A stretch of DNA of 64,000 nt from Candidatus Wallbacteria bacterium (GTDB lineage Bacteria; Muiribacteriota; UBA6191; JACPRK01): the NCBI GenBank assembly GCA_016213845.1, contig JACQZN010000056.1, positions 1-64,000 on the forward strand, in the 5' to 3' direction. The translations under genes were made by a program, and so were the position numbers. The notes below the pieces were generated by a model. That model saw only the letters and a list, made by a program, of their open reading frames with translations. It made no database searches and was not told the DNA's origin. Below are positions 34,237 to 48,722 of the stretch, one piece after another. Within the stretch, counting starts at the first letter, position 1; each line of letters opens with the position of its first letter.

Positions 34237-35162
34237 TCGCCGCGCGGTCCCTCACGGTCCGCTACGGCCAGCTCGTGGCGCTCGACGGCGTCGACCTGGA
34301 CGTCGCCCCGGGGCAGATATTCGGACTCATCGGACCCAACGGAGCCGGCAAGACCACGCTCATCCGAGTGCTCACCGGCCTGCTGGTCCCGGAAGCCGGC
34401 GGGGCCACCATCGGCGGCTTCGACGTGCTGCGGCAGGAACGTGATGCCCGGCGACGACTGGGCTACATGCCCGACTTCTTCGGCATCTACGACCACCTCA
34501 CCGTGCGCGAGTACCTGCAGCTCTTCGGAGAGCTGAACGGCCTGGCGGGCCCGGGCCTGGCGGGCGCCATCGAACAGGCGCTGGCGGCAGTCCGCCTCAA
34601 GCTCAAGAAGGACGAGCTGGTCGATCACCTGTCACGCGGCATGACGCAGCGGCTGGCGCTGGCGCGCACGCTCCTGCACGACCCGGACGCCTTCGTCCTG
34701 GACGAGCCGGCCTCGGGGCTCGACCCCGCTGCCCGCATCGAGCTCTGGGACATCTTGCGCGGCCTCGCCCAGCGCGGCAAGGCGGTGCTCATCAGCTCCC
34801 ATATCCTCAAGGAGATGGAGGGACTGGTCACCCACGTCGGGCTGCTGGAACGCGGACGGCTGCTCTACTCGGGACCCTACGAGACGCTGGTCAAGGCCGG
34901 CGCCACTCGCCGCGTACGGTTCCGCCCGGTCGGCGACGTGCCGCCCGAGCGCGTCGTCGGCCTGCTCACCGAGCACGGCGGGCGCCTCTCCGGCGTCCCG
35001 GGCGACGCCTACTGGGAAGTCGAGCTGGCCGATGACGACACCGCCGTCGCAGCCCTGGTCGGTCGCCTGGTCGCCGCGGGTGTCGGCGTCTCACTGCCGC
35101 CCGTCGCAGAGGACAGGCTCGAACGCGCCTTCCTGGCGCTCACTGGGAGGGATGCCTCTTGA
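34233..35162 (+). CDS. ABC transporter ATP-binding protein
   Basis: GLIGPNGAGKTTLIRVLTGLL, LSRGMTQRLALARTLLHDPDAFVLDEPASGLDP; ATGA overlap with upstream gene. Confidence 0.93.
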   Translation: MIAARSLTVRYGQLVALDGVDLDVAPGQIFGLIGPNGAGKTTLIRVLTGLLVPEAGGATIGGFDVLRQERDARRRLGYMPDFFGIYDHLTVREYLQLFGELNGLAGPGLAGAIEQALAAVRLKLKKDELVDHLSRGMTQRLALARTLLHDPDAFVLDEPASGLDPAARIELWDILRGLAQRGKAVLISSHILKEMEGLVTHVGLLERGRLLYSGPYETLVKAGATRRVRFRPVGDVPPERVVGLLTEHGGRLSGVPGDAYWEVELADDDTAVAALVGRLVAAGVGVSLPPVAEDRLERAFLALTGRDAS

Positions 35163-36622
35163 TAGCCCTGCTGAAGAAAGAGCTGCGGGTCTCCGTGCGC
35201 GAGAAGTCGACCTGGCTCCTGCTCGCCTCGATGCCGGCCTGCTTCGTCGCCTGCGGTCTCCTCGGCCTCAACGAGTCGACCTACGCCGGCGCTCCAAGGC
35301 TCATGGCCGCCGACGCTGGCCGCCAGCTCCTCTCCTACGCTCTCTACACCCAGGTCTTCGCCGTGATGCTGTTCGTCCCGATCCTGGCGGCGACCAACCT
35401 GGTTCGCGAGGGCGATCGAAAGACGCTCGACGTGCTCATGACCACTCCCCGCAGCGGCGCCGAGCTGGCGCTGGCCAAGCTGCTCTCCCCGGCGCTGCTG
35501 GCGCTCGGCTCCTGCCTGCTCGCTCTGCCGCTGCTGATCGCGCTTCCACTCCTGGGCGGCGTGCGGCCCTGGGAGCCGCTTGCCGGCTTCGCCGCCGTCG
35601 CTCTCGCCGCGCTCGTCGCCTCGGCCGGCGGGCTGGCCGCGGGCGCGCTCGCCCGCACCACGGCAGCCTCGGTCTCACTGGCCGCGCTCGCCGCCGGCTT
35701 CGTCTGCCTCGCCACGGCGTGGACTGGCCTGGGTCCCCGCACCGACCTCGTCACCGCGGCCTTCCCGCCCGGCATCGTGCGCTCCATCGTCGAGTCCGAG
35801 GGCGTCGAGCTCTTCGGACGCGAGGTTCCGCTCCTGTTGCCCGCGCTCGCTTTCCTGCCTCTTGTCGGAAGCTGCCTCTTCTTCGCGTCACTTCCCGCGC
35901 TCTCCTCGCGATTCCGGCGCCAGGCTCTGCCCGTACGAGCCACCGGCGCCGCAGCGCTCGCCCTCGGGCTGGCTCTCATCGCGCTCAACATCGCCAGCAG
36001 CTCGAGTATCCGGGACCTCCACGACTGCGGCGCGGGGATGGCCCTCTTCGCCTGCCTGGTCTCCACGGCGCTCGTGCTGATCGAACGGCTGGACCGGGGC
36101 GGGTTCCTGCGCACTCTCCCGGGCAGTGCGGAGGCCGAGTCGATCGCGGCGGGAGGATGGGTCCGCAGGTTCGCCGCGTCCACCACGGGCCTGGCGCTGT
36201 TGCCTGTCGCCGCGACGCTCCCCGGCCTGGGCATCCTCCTGGCCCGCGGCCTGGGAGGCACCGGGACGGATGACCCGCGCGTCGCGCTCGTTCTTGGGGC
36301 TCTGGCCTACGCAGTCGCCTGGACTCTCCTCCTGGCGGGCGCCTCGCGCGCCGTGGCCTGCCGGGGGCGCACCTGGGCCGAACCGGTCCTGACTGCGATA
36401 CTGCCCGGAGCGCTCCTGGCCTACGGCGTGTCGTACCGCATCTTCTCCCACGCAAACGAGATCGTCGGCATCGATCCCATTGGCGTTCTGATCCCCTTCG
36501 TCAGCGCCTCCTACGACTCCTGTCCCCACCTCTTTGCAACCGGCGTCGCCCACACCGCGGCAACCGCCGGCGCCGCCGCCGTCCTCTGGATCTTCGCTAC
36601 CCGACGCCGAAACAGGAGCTGA
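35159..36622 (+). CDS. ABC-2-type permease (TTG start, overlaps upstream stop)
   Basis: MIALLKKELRVSVREKSTWLLLASMPACFVACGLLG...ATNLVREGDRKTLDVLMTTPRSGAELALAKLL; many hydrophobic segments. Confidence 0.85.
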   Translation: MIALLKKELRVSVREKSTWLLLASMPACFVACGLLGLNESTYAGAPRLMAADAGRQLLSYALYTQVFAVMLFVPILAATNLVREGDRKTLDVLMTTPRSGAELALAKLLSPALLALGSCLLALPLLIALPLLGGVRPWEPLAGFAAVALAALVASAGGLAAGALARTTAASVSLAALAAGFVCLATAWTGLGPRTDLVTAAFPPGIVRSIVESEGVELFGREVPLLLPALAFLPLVGSCLFFASLPALSSRFRRQALPVRATGAAALALGLALIALNIASSSSIRDLHDCGAGMALFACLVSTALVLIERLDRGGFLRTLPGSAEAESIAAGGWVRRFAASTTGLALLPVAATLPGLGILLARGLGGTGTDDPRVALVLGALAYAVAWTLLLAGASRAVACRGRTWAEPVLTAILPGALLAYGVSYRIFSHANEIVGIDPIGVLIPFVSASYDSCPHLFATGVAHTAATAGAAAVLWIFATRRRNRS

Positions 36623-36649: not shown

Positions 36650-39154
36650 ATGTCCTACGACGAGAACCGGATCTTTCACACGCCCCCTCTGACGCGTATC
36701 GAGCGCCGCGGCATCGCGCTGGCCATCGACGGCGACACCCCCAACTGGATCGCAACCGACGTGCGCGGGTCGCGGCTGCTGACCTTGCTCGACGGCAAGC
36801 GCCCGTTCGGCGAGGTCGTGCGCGAGTATGCCGCGCGCGAGGGCGTCGAGCTCTCCCGCGCCTGGGTCCACGCCTCCTGGTTCGTGCGGGCCCTGGAGCG
36901 CCAGGGGCTTGCCGCGCCCCACGCCTTTTCGCCGGCCCCCTACTCCGGACGGGCGTCGACTCTCGCCCTGGAGCGGCTCTCCGAGCTCTGGCTCCACACG
37001 AACAACAGCTGCAACTTGCAGTGCACGCACTGCCTGGTCAGCTCCGGCCCCGGCGGCGACAACGGGCTCCCGGGCGAGAAGCTCCGGGACCTCATCACCC
37101 AGGCCCACCGCCTGGGCACCCGCCGCTTCTACTTCACGGGCGGAGAGCCGTTCGCCCGCAAGGACATCTTCGAGCTGATCGCGCTCGTCACCGAGGAGCT
37201 CGCCAGCGAGCTGATTGTCCTGACCAATGCGACCCTGTTCCAGGACGAGCGTCGCGCCAATCTCGCCAGCGTCGACCGGCAGCGGCTGCGCCTGCAGGTC
37301 AGCCTCGACGGCGCGTCGGCCGCAGTCAACGACCGGCTCCGGGGCGAGGGCAGCTTCGAGACCATCTGCGCCGGCCTCCGCACGGCCGCGGGGCTGGGCT
37401 TCCCCGTCACGGTCACGTCGGTGGTGACGCGCGACAACCTGTCCGAGCTGCCCGGAATGGTTGCGCTCACCTCGGAGGCAGGCGTCTCGAACCTGCACCT
37501 GATGTGGCTCCACAGGCGCGGGCGGGCGATTGACCGCGGCGCGGGCTTCTTCCCGTCGACAGCGGAGCTGGTGGATTTGACGCGCCGCGTCAGGACACTC
37601 GCGGCCGCGGCAGGAGTGCAGCTCGACAACACCGCCTCGGCCCGTTACCGCGTCAACGGCCGGCCGGGCGCCCGCTACGACCTGGGGAACCAGGCGTGGG
37701 AGAGCCTCTGCATCTACTCCGACGGCCGCGTCTACCCGTCGGCCGCGCTGGCCAACCACCGGCCGCTCTGCTGCGGCGACGCGCTGGAGCAGCCACTGGA
37801 GCGCATCTGGAGGGACGGTCCCATCGCCCGCGAGCTGCGCGAGGCCACCGTGCTCCGCAAGAGCGGCGCGCACGCCGATTTCCTCAAGTACTTCACGGGC
37901 GGCGGCGACGTCGAGCACAGCTACGTCGCCAGCGAGGCCCGCCACGGCAAGGGCAGCTTCCTGGCGGAGGACCCCTACTACGACCTGGCGCGCGAGCTGG
38001 TCCTGGACGCCATGTTCGAGCTGGCCGCCGAGGGCCGCGCGGCCACCAACATGCGCTCCGGCCACAACGCCCCGCCGCTCTACCACGCGATGGGCGCCGG
38101 TAGCGTCGTCTGCGGCGCCGACGACGTCGACGTCACTCGCGACTACGAGGTCCGCACCCTCCACTCCAACTGCGTCCTCGGGTTCGACGTGGAGCGCCCC
38201 CACCGCCTCGTGCAGCAGTTCTACGGCGAGGCCGCCCAGGAGCCCAAACCCGGCCTCTGCTGCCCGGAGAGCTTCGCCAAGGAGGATGTCTCGCACATCC
38301 CGGAGGCCGTCCAGGCGCGCGCCTTCGGGTGCGGCTCGCCCGTCTCGCTGGCCGGCGTGCGCGAGGGCGAGACCATCGTCGATCTCGGAAGCGGCGGCGG
38401 CATCGATTGCTTCATCGCGGCGCGCAAGACCGGCCCCGCGGGCACCGTCATCGGCGTCGACATGACAGAAAAGATGCTCCAGGTCGCCAACGAAAACCTG
38501 CCGCTCGTCGCCGCCAACCTGGGCTACACCAACGTGGAGTTCCGCAAGGGGTTCCTCGAGAAGGTGCCCGTGGACAGCCGCTCGGTCGACCTCGTCACTT
38601 CCAACTGCGTCATCAACCTCTCGCCGGACAAGCGCGCGGTGCTCTCTGAGATCTGGCGCATGCTGAAGGACCACGGCCGCCTGGTCGTGAGCGACATCGT
38701 CAGCGAGGGGCCGATCCCCTCGCATCTGAAGGTCAACTCGATGCTCTGGGGCGAGTGCCTGGGCGGCGCGCTAGCGGAGGACGAGCTCCTCGGCATGCTC
38801 GAGGCCGCGGGCTTCCATGGGATTTCGCTCCTCAAGAAGTCCTTCTGGCAGGAGGTGGCCGGCTACCGGTTCCACTCGGTCACCGTGCGCGGCTACAAGT
38901 TCGAGAAGAAGGCGGGTTGCGACTTCGTCGGCCAGTGGGCCATCTACCAGGGCCCCTACAAGGCCGTGTTCGATGAGGAGGGGCATCTCTTCCCGCGCGG
39001 CGAGGCGGTCGAGGTCTGCACGGACACCTTCGCCCGGATTGCGCAGCCGCCCTACACCGGGGCCTTCACGCTGGTCGGCGACGGTGCTCCCGCCGGCGCC
39101 CAGCCCGCCGCGGGCGGCGAGGCCTGCTGCGCCCCGGGCGGGGCGTGCTGCTGA
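36650..39154 (+). CDS. PqqD-like / radical SAM-SPASM / ArsM-type SAM methyltransferase fusion
   Basis: NWIATDVRGSRLLTLLDGKRPFGEVVREYA (PqqD-like); CNLQCTHC radical SAM motif; CIYSDGRVYPSAALANHRPLCCGDALEQPLERIWRD (SPASM-like); VQQFYGEAA...GLCCPES...GCGSPVSLAGVREGETIVDLGSGGGIDCFIAARKTGPAGTVIGVDMTEKML...SNCVINLSPDK...WGECLGGAL (ArsM-like); CCAPGGACC tail. Confidence 0.88.
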   Translation: MSYDENRIFHTPPLTRIERRGIALAIDGDTPNWIATDVRGSRLLTLLDGKRPFGEVVREYAAREGVELSRAWVHASWFVRALERQGLAAPHAFSPAPYSGRASTLALERLSELWLHTNNSCNLQCTHCLVSSGPGGDNGLPGEKLRDLITQAHRLGTRRFYFTGGEPFARKDIFELIALVTEELASELIVLTNATLFQDERRANLASVDRQRLRLQVSLDGASAAVNDRLRGEGSFETICAGLRTAAGLGFPVTVTSVVTRDNLSELPGMVALTSEAGVSNLHLMWLHRRGRAIDRGAGFFPSTAELVDLTRRVRTLAAAAGVQLDNTASARYRVNGRPGARYDLGNQAWESLCIYSDGRVYPSAALANHRPLCCGDALEQPLERIWRDGPIARELREATVLRKSGAHADFLKYFTGGGDVEHSYVASEARHGKGSFLAEDPYYDLARELVLDAMFELAAEGRAATNMRSGHNAPPLYHAMGAGSVVCGADDVDVTRDYEVRTLHSNCVLGFDVERPHRLVQQFYGEAAQEPKPGLCCPESFAKEDVSHIPEAVQARAFGCGSPVSLAGVREGETIVDLGSGGGIDCFIAARKTGPAGTVIGVDMTEKMLQVANENLPLVAANLGYTNVEFRKGFLEKVPVDSRSVDLVTSNCVINLSPDKRAVLSEIWRMLKDHGRLVVSDIVSEGPIPSHLKVNSMLWGECLGGALAEDELLGMLEAAGFHGISLLKKSFWQEVAGYRFHSVTVRGYKFEKKAGCDFVGQWAIYQGPYKAVFDEEGHLFPRGEAVEVCTDTFARIAQPPYTGAFTLVGDGAPAGAQPAAGGEACCAPGGACC

Positions 39155-39340: not shown

Positions 39341-40669
39341 TCACCCGGCGCCTCGGCGTGCGGCAGCACGCGCTTGCCTGGGCGCAGCGGGAGCATTCAG
39401 CGCAGCCGAGATTGGAACGGACCAGATACGATCTTCGAGCTGTTCGGCACGACGGCCGGTGTGGAGAACGATGCCGTGCGGAGCCTCGGCCCGGTACTCG
39501 GCCAAGAAGCTTCGAAGTGATCCGAGGTCGGCCCGCCGAATCGATGGGCCCGACTTGACCTCGATGGGCAGGAGCCGGCCGGCAGTCTCGACGACGAAGT
39601 CGACCTCCTCCCCAGAGGAGGTTCGCCAGTAGAGGATCTCGGGCCGGGGAAGAAGCTGCTCTCTCCAGGCAAGCAGCTCGGAGAGTACGAGATTCTCCAG
39701 CAAGGCGCCGCGCAGGTTCATTCTCGCGAGCTCGGCCCCAGTTCGCACGGCGGCCAGAGATGCCGCAAGCCCGGAATCGCAGAAGAAGAGGCGAGGAGAC
39801 TTGATGACGCGCTTCGTGCGATTGACGCAGTAGGCAGGTAGCCGGCGAACCAGGTAGGAGGCCTCGAGCAGGTCCAGGTAGCGGTGAGCCGAGGGCTGCG
39901 GAATCCCCGCATCGCGCGCCATGTCGGACTGGTTCACAAGAGCCCCACTTCTGAGAGCGGCCACTCGCATGAGCCTGCGGAACTCGATCAGGTTCTGGAT
40001 GTTGGAGAGCGACTGCAGATCGCGCTCCAGATATGTGCGGACATAGCCGTCGAACCACTGCTGGCGCGCTACAATCGTGGGCGCCAGCACCGCCGGGGGA
40101 AACCCTCCCGTCAGCAAGATGTCGTCCAGGTGGGGCAGCGGCTGATGTTCACCCTCGAGGCGAGACGGGTCCTCCAGCAAGGCCGTCCAGGCTCCGGCGG
40201 CACCGCCCCCCTGGCGTTCCCCCAGGGTGAAAGGATGCAGCTCGAGGTAGACGGCCCTGCCGGCCAGGGACTCGGACACGCGCCGCATCAGCAGCAGGTT
40301 GGCCGAACCCGACAGGAGAAACCGCCCCGGCCGTCTGCGATCGTCGACGGCTCGCTTGATGGCCAGAAGCAGGTCAGGACTGCGCTGGATCTCGTCCAGC
40401 GTGACCGGCTGCTTTCCATGAAGCAGCGCATCGGGAGCCGTCTGGGCCCTCTCGAGCACGTCCAGATCGTCCAGGGAGTAGTACCGTCGCCCGGGTGGAC
40501 CAAGCAAATGGCGAATCAACGTGCTCTTGCCCGTCTGGCGAGCCCCTGTCAGTACCACGACGGGAAATGTACTCAGGGCCTCTCGCACGTTGGCCGTGAA
40601 GGCACGAGGAAGTGGCAGACTGGGGTTATTCACACCGTGAAAGATAATCCTTCCTGACAGGAATAGCAA
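39341..40669 (-). CDS. AAA-family ATPase with DUF4143-type C-terminal domain
   Basis: VVVLTGARQTGKSTLIRHLL, VTLDEIQRSPDLLLAIKRAVD, FLLSGSANLLLM, ERDLQSLSNIQNLIEFRRLMRVAALRSG, FFCDSGLAASL, EVDFVVE...PIEVKSG. Confidence 0.9.
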   Translation of the reverse strand: MLFLSGRIIFHGVNNPSLPLPRAFTANVREALSTFPVVVLTGARQTGKSTLIRHLLGPPGRRYYSLDDLDVLERAQTAPDALLHGKQPVTLDEIQRSPDLLLAIKRAVDDRRRPGRFLLSGSANLLLMRRVSESLAGRAVYLELHPFTLGERQGGGAAGAWTALLEDPSRLEGEHQPLPHLDDILLTGGFPPAVLAPTIVARQQWFDGYVRTYLERDLQSLSNIQNLIEFRRLMRVAALRSGALVNQSDMARDAGIPQPSAHRYLDLLEASYLVRRLPAYCVNRTKRVIKSPRLFFCDSGLAASLAAVRTGAELARMNLRGALLENLVLSELLAWREQLLPRPEILYWRTSSGEEVDFVVETAGRLLPIEVKSGPSIRRADLGSLRSFLAEYRAEAPHGIVLHTGRRAEQLEDRIWSVPISAALNAPAAPRQARAAARRGAG

Positions 40670-43618: not shown

Positions 43619-44416
43619 ATGACTGCATCCGATACGAAGCTGGTCCATTACCGACCCGAAAAGGGCATCGCCGTCATCGAGATGGACGATCCCCCGGCCA
43701 ACACCTACACCTACGAGATGATGCGCCAGCTCGACGAGGCCATCCTCCAGGCCCGCATGGACAACGAGGTCCACGTCATCGTCCTCCGCGGCGCTGGCGA
43801 CAAGTTCTTCAGCGCCGGCGCCAACATCAAGATGCTCTCCGAGGCCGACCCGGGCTGGAAGTACTACTTCTGCCTCCACGCCAACGAGACGCTCTGCCGC
43901 CTCGAGCAAACCCCCAAGCTCACCATCGCAGCCCTGAACGGCCACACCGTCGGCGGCGGCCTCGAGATCGCCATGGCCTGTGACCTGCGTCTCGCCCGCA
44001 AGGACAGCGGTAAGATCGGCCTCCCCGAGGTCAACCTGGGCGTCCTCCCCGGAACCGGCGGCACCCAGCGCCTCGCCCGCATGGTCGGCAAGTCCCGCGC
44101 CATCGAATTGATGGTCACCGGCCGTACCTTCTCCTTCGAGGAGGCCGAGGAGCTGGGCATCGTCAATCAGATCATGGATCGCGACTCGTTCTGGGACGAG
44201 GTCGTCGCCTACGCCCGCCAGTTCGTCCCGCCCAACAAGGCCGCCAAGGCCGTCGGCCGCATCAAGCGCTCCGTGCAGACGGGCCTCGAAGTCGGCTTCG
44301 CCGAAGGCCTCGCCATCGAGCGCGAGATGCAGCAGCTCCTCTTCCAGAGCGAGGACGCCAAGGAAGGCCTCCACGCCTACGTCGAGAAGCGGCAGCCCCG
44401 CTTCGCGGCCCGCTGA
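43619..44416 (+). CDS. Enoyl-CoA hydratase/isomerase family protein
   Basis: VIVLRGAGDKFFSAGANIKML, ALNGHTVGGGLEIAMACDLRLA, LPEVNLGVLPGTGGTQRLARMVG. Confidence 0.93.
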   Translation: MTASDTKLVHYRPEKGIAVIEMDDPPANTYTYEMMRQLDEAILQARMDNEVHVIVLRGAGDKFFSAGANIKMLSEADPGWKYYFCLHANETLCRLEQTPKLTIAALNGHTVGGGLEIAMACDLRLARKDSGKIGLPEVNLGVLPGTGGTQRLARMVGKSRAIELMVTGRTFSFEEAEELGIVNQIMDRDSFWDEVVAYARQFVPPNKAAKAVGRIKRSVQTGLEVGFAEGLAIEREMQQLLFQSEDAKEGLHAYVEKRQPRFAAR

Positions 44417-44434
44417 CCCCCCGGAGCTCGCCAG

Positions 44435-45898
44435 ATGTCGAACACCGAAATCCTCCCGGGCCAGCTCTTCATCGGCGGCCAGTGGCGCGACGCAGCCGCT
44501 GGCGAATCCATCGACACCCTCAATCCGGCCACCGGCGAGAAGCTCACCACCTTGGCCGAGGCCGGCGCCGCCGACGTCGACAGTGCGGTCGCCGCCGCCC
44601 GGCAGGCCTTCGAGTCGAAGCCCTGGGCTACCATGGCCGCAGCCGACCGCGGCCGCCTGCTCACCAAGCTCGCCTCGCTCGTCGAGCGGGATATCGAGAA
44701 GCTCGCCCGGCTCGAGACCCTCGACAACGGCAAGCCCATCTTCGAGTCCCGCTATGTCGACATGCCCACCATCGTCGACATCTTCCACTACTACGCCGGC
44801 TGGGCCACCAAGCTCCACGGCGAGACCATCCCCGTCCGCGGCCCCTACCTCAACTACACCCTCCGCGAACCGGTCGGCGTCGTCGGCGCCATCGTCCCCT
44901 GGAACTTCCCACTCCTCCTGGCCTCCTGGAAGCTGGGACCCGCGCTTGCTGCCGGAAACACCGTCGTCCTCAAACCTGCGGAGCAGACCTCCCTCACCGC
45001 CCTGGAGCTCGCCCGGCTCACCGTCGAGGCCGGCTTCCCCCCGGGCGTCGTCAACGTCGTCACCGGCCGCGGCCACGTCACCGGCGCCGCCCTGGCATCC
45101 CACCCGGGCGTCGACAAAGTCGCCTTCACTGGCAGCACCACCACCGGCAAGGCCGTGATGCGAGCCGGCGTAGAGACCTTGAAGCGCGTCACGCTCGAGC
45201 TGGGCGGCAAGTCACCCAACATCGTCCTGGAGGACGCCGACCTCGAAAACGCCGTCAAGGGCGCCTACAACGGCATCTTCTACGGAAAGGGCGAGGTCTG
45301 CGCCGCAGGCTCCCGCCTCTTCGTCCACAAGAAGATCAAGGAGGCGTTCCTCGAGAAGCTCGTCGAGCGTACCAAGAAACTCCTCCCCGCGGACCCGCTG
45401 GACCCGAAAACGCGATTGGGTGCTTTGGTCAGCGCCGCCCAGATGAAAAAGGTCCTCGACTATGTAGAGCTCGGCAAGTCCGAGGGCAGCCGCCTCGTCA
45501 CCGGCGGCTCCGCCGTCACCGTCGGAAACGGCAAGGGCTACTTCGTCGCCCCCACCATCTTCGACGGCGTCGCCAACGGCTCGCGCCTCGCCCAGGAGGA
45601 GATCTTCGGCCCCGTCCTCGCCACCATCGAGTTCTCCGACACCGAAGAGGCCATCCGCGCCGCCAACGACAACCCCTACGGCCTCGCCGCCGCCGTCTGG
45701 ACCAAGGACATCGCCAAGGCCCACTCCGTCGCCCACCGCTTGCGCGCCGGCACCGTCTGGATCAACTGCTACAACGCCTACGACGCGGCCGCTCCCTTCG
45801 GCGGCGTCAAGGCCAGCGGCTTCGGCCGCGACCTCGGAATGCACGCCCTCGAGTCCTACACCCAGGTCAAGGACGTCTGGGTCAACCTCAAGGACTGA
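44435..45898 (+). CDS. NAD(P)-dependent aldehyde dehydrogenase
   Basis: GAIVPWNFPLLLASWKLGPALAAGNTVVLKPAEQT, VAFTGSTTTGKAVM, LELGGKSPNIVLEDADLE, GKGEVCAAGSRLFV. Confidence 0.95.
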   Translation: MSNTEILPGQLFIGGQWRDAAAGESIDTLNPATGEKLTTLAEAGAADVDSAVAAARQAFESKPWATMAAADRGRLLTKLASLVERDIEKLARLETLDNGKPIFESRYVDMPTIVDIFHYYAGWATKLHGETIPVRGPYLNYTLREPVGVVGAIVPWNFPLLLASWKLGPALAAGNTVVLKPAEQTSLTALELARLTVEAGFPPGVVNVVTGRGHVTGAALASHPGVDKVAFTGSTTTGKAVMRAGVETLKRVTLELGGKSPNIVLEDADLENAVKGAYNGIFYGKGEVCAAGSRLFVHKKIKEAFLEKLVERTKKLLPADPLDPKTRLGALVSAAQMKKVLDYVELGKSEGSRLVTGGSAVTVGNGKGYFVAPTIFDGVANGSRLAQEEIFGPVLATIEFSDTEEAIRAANDNPYGLAAAVWTKDIAKAHSVAHRLRAGTVWINCYNAYDAAAPFGGVKASGFGRDLGMHALESYTQVKDVWVNLKD

Positions 45899-45917
45899 CG
45901 CGAAGGAGCCGCCTGCC

Positions 45918-47033
45918 ATGGCCAGAATCTCCACCTTCGACGACTGGATCGACCTCTTCGCCGAGTGGCGCAGGGACATCGGCATCGATCTCCCCGAGAT
46001 CGCCAGCTACCCCTTCGAGGCCAAGTACGGCACCCTCAAGTGCTCCGAGATCGAGTACGGCGACTTCCGCGGCCAGCCCAAGTGGGAGCGCGTCCTGGAA
46101 ATCCCCGACCAGCGCGTCCGCGACGCCCTCCAGAACCTGATCATCTACCAGGGCGACACCGAGTTCGCCTCCGTCGAGCAGCAGCGCTACCTCGTCGACA
46201 CCGCTCCTGGCGAGTACGACCGCTACGCCCTCGTGCGCGTCATGACCGAGGAGATGCGGCACGGCTTCCAGATGTGCCACCTCCTCGTGAACCACTTCGG
46301 CCACTCCGGCAAGATCGAAGCCGCCAAGCAGCTCGAGCGCCGCGCCTTCGCCAACAACCGGCTCCTCGGCGCCTTCAACCAGATCGTCGCCAACTGGCTC
46401 GACTTCTACACCTACACCGACTTCGTCGACCGCGACGGCAAGTACCAGCTCAACATGCTGAGCACCTCGGCCTTCGCCCCCCTGGCCCGCTCCATGCTCC
46501 CGATGCTCAAGGAGGAGTCCTTCCACCTAGGCACCGGCCACGACGGCATCAAGCGCATCCTCAAGGCCGGCCTCGTCCCCACCGACATCATCCAGAAGTA
46601 TCTGAACAAGTGGATCTCCACGGCGTTCGACCTGTTCGGCGTCGACAACTCCAGCAGCGCCCACTGGTTCTACGTCTGGGGCCTCAAGGGGCGATTCGAC
46701 GAGGCCGCCTCCCCGCCCGACCCAGACAAGAGCAAGCTCAACGAGCACAACCGCGAGCTCTACCGCCAGGAGTGCCTCGAGCTCGTCGGCCAGTTCAACC
46801 GTGCCCTCCCCGAGGGCGCGACTCCGCTCGTCGTCCCCGATCTCAAGTTCAACCGAAAGATCGGCCAGTACGCCAGCCAGTGCTTCACCGTCGACGGACA
46901 GCCCGTGGCCCCCGAGCGCTACCCGGAGTACTCCGCGTCCGTGCTCCCCTCCGAGGCCGATCAAGCACGCCTGAAGCCCATCCTGGCGACCAAGGGTTGG
47001 ATCGCCGAGAAGCCGATGCCGGCAGCAGCCTGA
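45918..47033 (+). CDS. PaaA/BoxB-like di-iron oxygenase (acyl-CoA epoxidase-type)
   Basis: VMTEEMRHGFQMCHLLVNHFG (EExxH) and MLKEESFHLGTGHDGIKRI (EExxH). Confidence 0.78.
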   Translation: MARISTFDDWIDLFAEWRRDIGIDLPEIASYPFEAKYGTLKCSEIEYGDFRGQPKWERVLEIPDQRVRDALQNLIIYQGDTEFASVEQQRYLVDTAPGEYDRYALVRVMTEEMRHGFQMCHLLVNHFGHSGKIEAAKQLERRAFANNRLLGAFNQIVANWLDFYTYTDFVDRDGKYQLNMLSTSAFAPLARSMLPMLKEESFHLGTGHDGIKRILKAGLVPTDIIQKYLNKWISTAFDLFGVDNSSSAHWFYVWGLKGRFDEAASPPDPDKSKLNEHNRELYRQECLELVGQFNRALPEGATPLVVPDLKFNRKIGQYASQCFTVDGQPVAPERYPEYSASVLPSEADQARLKPILATKGWIAEKPMPAAA

Positions 47034-47082
47034 CCCGGCCGGCCCGGCCGGAAGCGGCCCGGCGCACGCCGCCCCAGCCCCC

Positions 47083-47931
47083 ATGGTCATCGACATCCAC
47101 GTCCACGTCCAGCCGCTGGAGATGATGAAACCGGCATGCCGCGCCGTCATGGAGGCCAAGCATCCGGACTTCGAGCGCATAGCGGCGCTGGCCCACGACC
47201 CGGCCCGCTTTGTGGCGTTGATGGACGCCGAGGGAATCGGCAGGGTCGGCGTCATCAACTACGTCGCCGAGCGCGTCATGGGCTTCACCCACGAGGTCAA
47301 CGACTGGGCCGCCCGCTACGCCCGGGACCATCGCGACCGGCTGCTGCCGTTCGGCTCCATCGATCCCACCAGCGACATCGACGCGGCGCGGGAGATGGAC
47401 CGAATCGTGGAGCATCTTCGCCTGGCCGCACTCAAGCTCCACCCGCCCCACCAGCTCTTCCACGCCAACCAGTACCGCCAGGGGCTCACGGCCCTCGAGA
47501 CGGTCTACCGGAAGGCCCAGGACGCCCAGCTGCCGGTGATGATCCACACCGGCACCTCCATCTTCCCGGGCGCCCGAAACGTCTACGCCGATCCGATGGC
47601 CGTCGATGACGTGGCGGTCGACTTCCCCGAGCTGCCGATCATCCTGGCCCATGGCGGCCGGCCGCTCTACATGCAGACAGCCGCCTTCCTGGTGCGGCGC
47701 CACCGGAATGTCTGGATGGACATCTCGGGCATCCCACCTCAGTCGTTGCTCGACTACTTCCCCAGGCTCGAGCAGCTCTCCGACCGGGTGCTCTGGGGCT
47801 CCGACTGGCCCGGTCCGATGGTGCCCGGGATGGCCGCGAACCTTGGCCGATTCCTTGCGCTGCCATTGTCGGAAGCGGCCCGGCAGCGCATCCTCCACGA
47901 GAACGCCGAGAAGCTCTTCCGGCTCGCCTGA
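47083..47931 (+). CDS. Amidohydrolase_2 family protein (decarboxylase/hydrolase type)
   Basis: MVIDIHVHVQPLEMM, LKLHPPHQLF, VMIHTGTSIFPG, IILAHGGRP, VLWGSDWPGPM. Confidence 0.87.
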   Translation: MVIDIHVHVQPLEMMKPACRAVMEAKHPDFERIAALAHDPARFVALMDAEGIGRVGVINYVAERVMGFTHEVNDWAARYARDHRDRLLPFGSIDPTSDIDAAREMDRIVEHLRLAALKLHPPHQLFHANQYRQGLTALETVYRKAQDAQLPVMIHTGTSIFPGARNVYADPMAVDDVAVDFPELPIILAHGGRPLYMQTAAFLVRRHRNVWMDISGIPPQSLLDYFPRLEQLSDRVLWGSDWPGPMVPGMAANLGRFLALPLSEAARQRILHENAEKLFRLA

Positions 47932-47942
47932 TTCGAGGTCCG

Positions 47943-48722
<780 letters not shown>

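Follow-up and report, generated by a model that had tools for sequence, protein, structure and literature searches.

A multi-phylum family of radical SAM-ArsM fusion proteins and its possible role as a single-chain organoarsenical synthase

A gene in the window (the whole 64,000-nucleotide stretch of DNA analysed here) encodes a single polypeptide in which a radical SAM (rSAM) half of the RRE-rSAM-SPASM lineage is joined to an ArsM-like arsenic methyltransferase, and the fusion represents a multi-phylum family rather than an oddity of the window's genome (G000). We propose, with a probability of about one half, that it is a bifunctional organoarsenical synthase that replaces the pair formed elsewhere by ArsM and ArsS. 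No description of this architecture and no characterised member were found in the open-access literature searched. Somewhat more tentatively, we suggest that these proteins are previously undescribed single-polypeptide synthases of several phyla: a radical SAM enzyme of the RRE-SPASM lineage, related to ArsS in the superfamily core only, would have been joined to ArsM and have taken on the adenosyl-arsenic step, in one group without SPASM ligands, with C-As bond formation having arisen at least once more.

Architecture of the fusion protein

The fusion gene occupies positions 36650..39154 on the (+) strand, the whole ORF encoding 834 aa with a strong coding signature (GC3 0.94 vs GC2 0.49), and its coordinates, length and coding bias all agree with the single ORF proposed in the preliminary description. 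In G001, a genome of the same genus as that of the window, a syntenic ortholog (L025:7357-9861) is 96% identical to the fusion and a paralog (L023:8578-11079) is 73% identical. Comparison with the ortholog indicated purifying selection on both halves, the dN/dS value being 0.15 for the rSAM half (0.18 in its core and 0.11 in the SPASM/linker part) and 0.07 for the ArsM half, and the full-length architecture recurs in several phyla, which is more than would be expected by chance. An AlphaFold model of the fusion built from an 8-row alignment (mean pLDDT 72.4) was usable for the N-terminal half and middling for the ArsM half, with residues 484-537 and the tail poorly modelled, and no geometry of the As site is claimed from it.

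The N-terminal PqqD-like/RRE domain (about aa 1-95; 36650..36934, (+) strand) is supported by matches of PF05402 (PqqD) to 2/8 close family members and to the more distant relative L112, by an alignment with SkfB from the PDB sequences that covers residues 1-280 of the window protein, and by Foldseek, in which the N-terminal half matched CteB, SuiB and SkfB, with CteB across 475 columns. The window protein alone gave no PF05402 match, falling below the Pfam threshold, and in the model its residues 11-90 had pLDDT values of mostly 82-94. The radical SAM core follows at about aa 110-300 (36977..37549, (+) strand; PF04055, E=6.8e-20, residues 119-268), and carries the CX3CX2C [4Fe-4S] motif with C121, C125 and C128 (CNLQCTHC; 37010..37033, (+) strand), which is invariant in all aligned members. 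Both the PqqD-like N-terminus and the CX3CX2C motif had been recognized in the preliminary description, as had the ArsM-like part and the Cys tail described below, and this part of the proposed architecture stands; the SPASM-like reading of the Cys region that follows does not hold for this member, a working set of SPASM cysteines not being confirmed.

That region, a degenerate SPASM domain at about aa 345-445 (37682..37984, (+) strand), was defined by alignments of the members and by PF13186 (SPASM), which scored just below its cut-off on the window protein (21.3 bits vs 21.5). The ligands C407, C410, C416 and C444 of most other members are A, D, T and Y, respectively, in the window protein and likewise in its genus mates, while C354 and the poorly conserved C375 are kept; several Nitrospirota members are without the same SPASM cysteines. 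In a first tree the ligand-poor members formed one clade (SH-aLRT 98), but once the ligand columns were removed the data did no more than allow this clade (p-AU 0.43), and a single loss of the ligands is therefore not claimed. Given the purifying selection on it, the rSAM half looks functional without most of the auxiliary-cluster ligands, and in the window's group, which has shed most of them, it probably relies on the catalytic cluster only. Beyond this region lies C508 of the motif HSNCVLGF (38171..38173, (+) strand), which is invariant in the fused as well as in the split forms of the protein, the separate rSAM genes ending shortly beyond the motif.

The ArsM-like methyltransferase and its C-terminal domain extend over about aa 516-810 (38195..39079, (+) strand), as defined by NF008823, PF13847 and PDB sequence and fold matches. 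PF13847 (MTase) matched residues 572-721 with E=4.7e-31 and NF008823 (arsenite methyltransferase) scored 239.9 bits over residues 543-732, below its curated cut-off of 263; the arsenosugar ArsM model NF038099 gave 156.3 bits, far below its cut-off of 400, and the ArsM model NF040538 gave 192 bits and did not reach its cut-off of 500. The best PDB sequence matches of the C-terminal half were all ArsM/AS3MT proteins (CrArsM, human AS3MT and CmArsM) and Foldseek with the AlphaFold model also matched it to ArsM structures, its class I MTase fold being most similar to ArsM by both approaches. Alignment to CmArsM placed C561 (FGCGSP; 38330..38332), C653 (SNCVIN; 38606..38608) and C703 (WGECLG; 38756..38758) on C72, C174 and C224, respectively, and C537-C538 (GLCCPE; 38258..38263), judged by its position outside the printed alignment, is the likely counterpart of CmArsM C44 (all on the (+) strand). 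The conserved cysteines noted in the preliminary description are thus in place, and with the full ArsM Cys set retained, a generic methyltransferase devoid of these residues, which had been named there as the refuting case, can be discarded. The Cys-rich C-terminal tail, CCAPGGACC (CCxxGGxCC; 39125..39151, (+) strand), is evident from the sequence, the window protein ending in GGEACCAPGGACC.

Some other readings of the gene were tried and rejected. Selenocysteine was considered because of in-frame TGA codons in some relatives, but these mapped mostly to ordinary terminal stops, and one internal TGA, in L109, was located at a non-conserved site. A viral origin was dropped as relatives were absent from the viral contigs searched, and so was an anti-phage role, as the PADLOC matches to mad2 and pVip were at the superfamily level only, to the MTase and rSAM cores.

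Distribution and gene company of the family

To find relatives, contigs of GTDB genomes were scanned using the N-terminal half of the window protein. Full-length fusions were detected in Dadabacteria/Thermodesulfobacteriota (L032, L033 and L038; L032 belongs to the unclassified 'Bacterium HR37' and was put in this group by the tree), Latescibacterota (L034), Eisenbacteria (L036) and Hydrogenedentota (L037), and two Nitrospirota copies (L035 and L039) were cut by contig ends. Full-length fusions of these phyla, Nitrospirota included, are 44-56% identical to the window protein. A survey of 396 Nitrospirota genomes distinguished three forms: type A, present in 17/396 genomes, about 44-56% identical and with the Cys tail mostly present; type B, present in 22/396 genomes, about 37% identical and without the type-A tail; and split rSAM and ArsM pairs in three genomes (G049, G059 and G068; L101-L106). 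The terminal cysteines are largely kept in type-A members and missing at those columns in type B. In the type-B proteins L107, L108, L111 and L112, C537 is replaced by Tyr and there are extra SPASM cysteines. Two type-A fusions are present in some Nitrospirota genomes (G166:C2 and C18; G047:C140 and C147), the second one of G047 being cut by a contig end. In the split pairs, the invariant SCVL motif stands almost at the end of the rSAM gene, and the rSAM and ArsM genes are carried by different contigs; in trees, type A groups with the split ArsM by its ArsM half, and the split rSAM is closer to type B by the rSAM half.

Several members keep company of an arsenosugar type, the link of TIGR04282 and TIGR04283 to arsenosugars being given by NCBI family names and co-occurrence. 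In L032, L033 and L038, the fusion is directly followed by a TIGR04282 glycosyltransferase gene over the cut-off and by a PHO4-family transporter gene (by Pfam in L032, by BLAST in L033 and L038). Downstream neighbours in L034 are a PHO4 transporter (Pfam) and a TIGR04283 gene over the cut-off; in the same position L036 has a TIGR04282-like gene just below the cut-off and then a VTT-type protein (BLAST), and L114 has a PHO4-like transporter (BLAST), a VTT protein and the MerA-like FAD oxidoreductase NF004991. A MerA-like FAD oxidoreductase gene is placed upstream of the fusion in L035 and L039, and a VTT protein near it in L115 and L117 (all by BLAST). The second copy of G001 (L031/L023) is flanked by TIGR04282, over the cut-off, and NF004991; genes for a PHO4-like transporter and a DUF547 protein lie close by. 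In 3/3 genomes with split pairs (G049, G059 and G068), VTT and TIGR04283-like genes come after the ArsM gene, and the split rSAM gene overlaps a TIGR04282 gene in G049 and G059. No arsenosugar-type neighbour was seen close to the Nitrospirota type-A loci L116 and L118-L120. A coarse scan within 800 bases revealed no conserved small ORF or precursor peptide beside the fusion genes, its matches being mostly fragments of larger neighbour genes or shared by close relatives. The following gene overlaps the fusion or starts within about 50 bp of it at several loci.

The window copy is not part of an arsenosugar-type cluster but adjoins an ABC-2 transporter, whose ATPase and permease genes (window 34239-36622) end 27 bases before the fusion, so that the latter starts 28 bases after the permease gene, an order and arrangement common to G001; this transporter is a possible exporter of the product. 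A DUF4143/AAA_14 ATPase gene (window 39341-40669) lies between the fusion and a kinase gene in G000. It is missing in G001, where the kinase starts 41 bases after the fusion, and looks like a recent insertion. Further along (window 43619-48722), successive genes for enoyl-CoA hydratase-like, aldehyde dehydrogenase-like, PaaA_PaaC-domain and amidohydrolase proteins are probably concerned with aromatic degradation, the enoyl-CoA hydratase-like and aldehyde dehydrogenase-like names being a reading of the sequence alone.

ArsS (TIGR04167) was found over its cut-off in 0/8 of the examined genomes that carry the fusion and belong to other genera than the window's. In the Nitrospirota survey, in which many genomes are incomplete MAGs, ArsS was present in 0/17 type-A genomes vs 218/379 others (Fisher p 8e-7, uncorrected for relatedness; the genomes being related, such p-values overstate independence). 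TIGR04282 was nevertheless kept in 14/17 of the type-A genomes, and in this sample it otherwise tracks ArsS, occurring in 196/207 ArsS genomes outside the fusion groups vs 24/147 genomes with neither. Canonical genomes carry a separate ArsM gene near ArsS, as in G364:C37:72320-73273 and 73670-74575. Type B coexists with ArsS in 11/22 genomes and is thus not exclusive of it, which assigns the exclusion pattern to type A. Within type A the exclusion is not absolute, since G000, alone of the genomes examined, carries ArsS as well.

Proposed function and alternative readings

The joining of ArsM and radical SAM halves, the company of arsenosugar-named glycosyltransferases and the exclusion of ArsS together make both steps in one protein the simplest reading. 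The ArsM half would bind As(III) via C561, C653 and C703, as the conservation of these residues suggests, and methylate it with SAM, and the radical SAM half would cleave a second SAM and place a 5'-deoxyadenosyl (or other SAM-derived) group onto the methylated trivalent arsenic, 5'-deoxyadenosyl transfer and other radical outcomes being alike at the sequence level. The product would be an arsenosugar precursor, as it is from ArsM and ArsS elsewhere, and might then be processed by the TIGR04282/TIGR04283 glycosyltransferases. ArsS is a radical SAM enzyme that adenosylates As after methylation by ArsM (cited in PMC12159101). As the radical half derives from the RRE-SPASM lineage, its use in this step would be a non-orthologous replacement, with ArsS swapped for a radical enzyme of the RRE-rSAM-SPASM lineage. 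The As(III) substrate, the adenosyl product, channelling between the halves and the number of clusters are features that we infer.

A different product is unlikely, though less so than the other alternatives. The radical half could form another C-As bond or act later, by transfer of a 3-amino-3-carboxypropyl group in the manner of ArsL or by remodelling of a sugar or adenosyl group, the product then not being that of ArsS. Precedent comes from the radical SAM enzyme ArsL, which transfers 3-amino-3-carboxypropyl and so puts a different SAM fragment on As (PMC8552651); moreover, the rSAM half is not an ArsS, since it matches TIGR04167 in the core only (58.4 bits vs a cut-off of 300). Type B points the same way: a B12-binding radical SAM gene is next after the fusion in 4/4 loci read and ArsS coexists in half of its genomes, which together indicate that the family as a whole is not confined to a single product, and type-B fusions probably make something other than the type-A product. 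Against this, type A excludes ArsS yet keeps TIGR04282, which is most simply explained if it fills the ArsS step.

Slightly less probable is that in G000 the fusion acts mainly as an arsenic methyltransferase alongside a separate ArsS, its radical half being a relic or re-tasked. The ArsS gene of G000 (C46:12098-13003; L065:7874-9013) scores 415.6 bits and looks intact, with no ArsM recognised beside it on C46; TIGR04282, like ArsS, is on another contig than the fusion, and no second ArsM-like protein reaches a score comparable to that of the fusion. The SPASM ligands are lost in the window protein, and besides this one intact copy G000 retains only the remnant of a second fusion locus on contig C34 (L024:7384-8013), a deletion remnant of two tandem pieces matching aa 158-198 and 461-494, where the TIGR04282 and MerA-like neighbours of G001 L023 were not found. 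Against this reading stand the purifying selection on the rSAM half (dN/dS 0.15, and 0.11 in the SPASM/linker part), its intact CX3CX2C motif and the loss of the same ligands in Nitrospirota members of genomes that have no ArsS. The presence of ArsS in G000 and the different neighbours nonetheless allow a narrower role for the window copy, whose own role is less certain than that of the family.

It is very improbable that the substrate is a metal or metalloid other than arsenic, such as antimony, selenium or tellurium: soft thiol sites are not strictly selective, but the cysteines of the As(III) site are kept and the neighbours are arsenosugar-named families and a phosphate-family transporter. 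Peptide maturases are the enzymes in which RRE and SPASM domains are most familiar, and the PqqD-like domain might bind the acceptor of methylated arsenic, either a precursor peptide or the Cys tail of the same protein; in spite of the presence of that tail and of the closest folds, CteB, SuiB and SkfB, being all peptide maturases, such RRE-guided peptide chemistry is very improbable given the lack of a conserved small ORF in the coarse scan, the overlapping or close next genes in several loci and a gene context of small-molecule type. Of the earlier suggestion that metalloid methylation is coupled to radical chemistry on a peptide or small molecule, it is thus the small-molecule form that is favoured, by gene context and by the near-complete exclusion of ArsS, and the peptide form that loses ground.

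To our knowledge, few radical SAM enzymes are known to make C-As bonds, ArsS and ArsL being those cited here. If the family does replace the ArsM and ArsS pair, it would count as one more radical enzyme that forms C-As bonds and evolved independently, and having both steps on a single chain could allow reactive trivalent methylarsenicals to be channelled. Predicted arsenosugar-type metabolism would then extend to uncultured groundwater phyla and to Nitrospirota that are scored negative by the ArsS marker. The natural series of members with and without SPASM ligands makes the need for the auxiliary cluster directly testable.

Comparison with known systems

The fusion has the fold and the C72/C174/C224 positions in common with ArsM/AS3MT (CmArsM, 4fr0/4kw7; CrArsM, 5evj; human AS3MT, 8xt7), but its ArsM half sits behind an RRE-rSAM half and scores below the cut-offs of NF008823 and NF038099. 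Its N-terminal half resembles the RRE-rSAM-SPASM maturases (CteB, 5wgg/5why; SuiB, 5v1q; SkfB, 6efn) in domain order and fold; unlike these, it is joined to ArsM, no precursor peptide was found in the coarse scan, and the window member is without most SPASM ligands. In the arsinothricin system, a radical SAM enzyme and ArsM likewise act on one arsenical (PMC8552651), and NF040538 matches the fusion, but ArsL is there a separate protein with a different product; NF040542 (ArsL-type) was not among the best 25 NCBIfam matches of the window protein.

ArsS (TIGR04167) is also a radical SAM enzyme with a CX3CX2C motif that partners ArsM and occurs alongside TIGR04282/TIGR04283 genes, and its genome distribution and that of the type-A fusions are complementary. 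ArsS-like gene company is seen in L032, L033, L034, L038 and the second copy of G001, but not at the window locus. An RRE domain and a SPASM-derived region set the fusion apart from ArsS, and its match to TIGR04167 covers model positions 4-149 of 303 only, well short of membership. It is therefore classed not as an ArsS but as a variant of the ArsM plus radical SAM systems.
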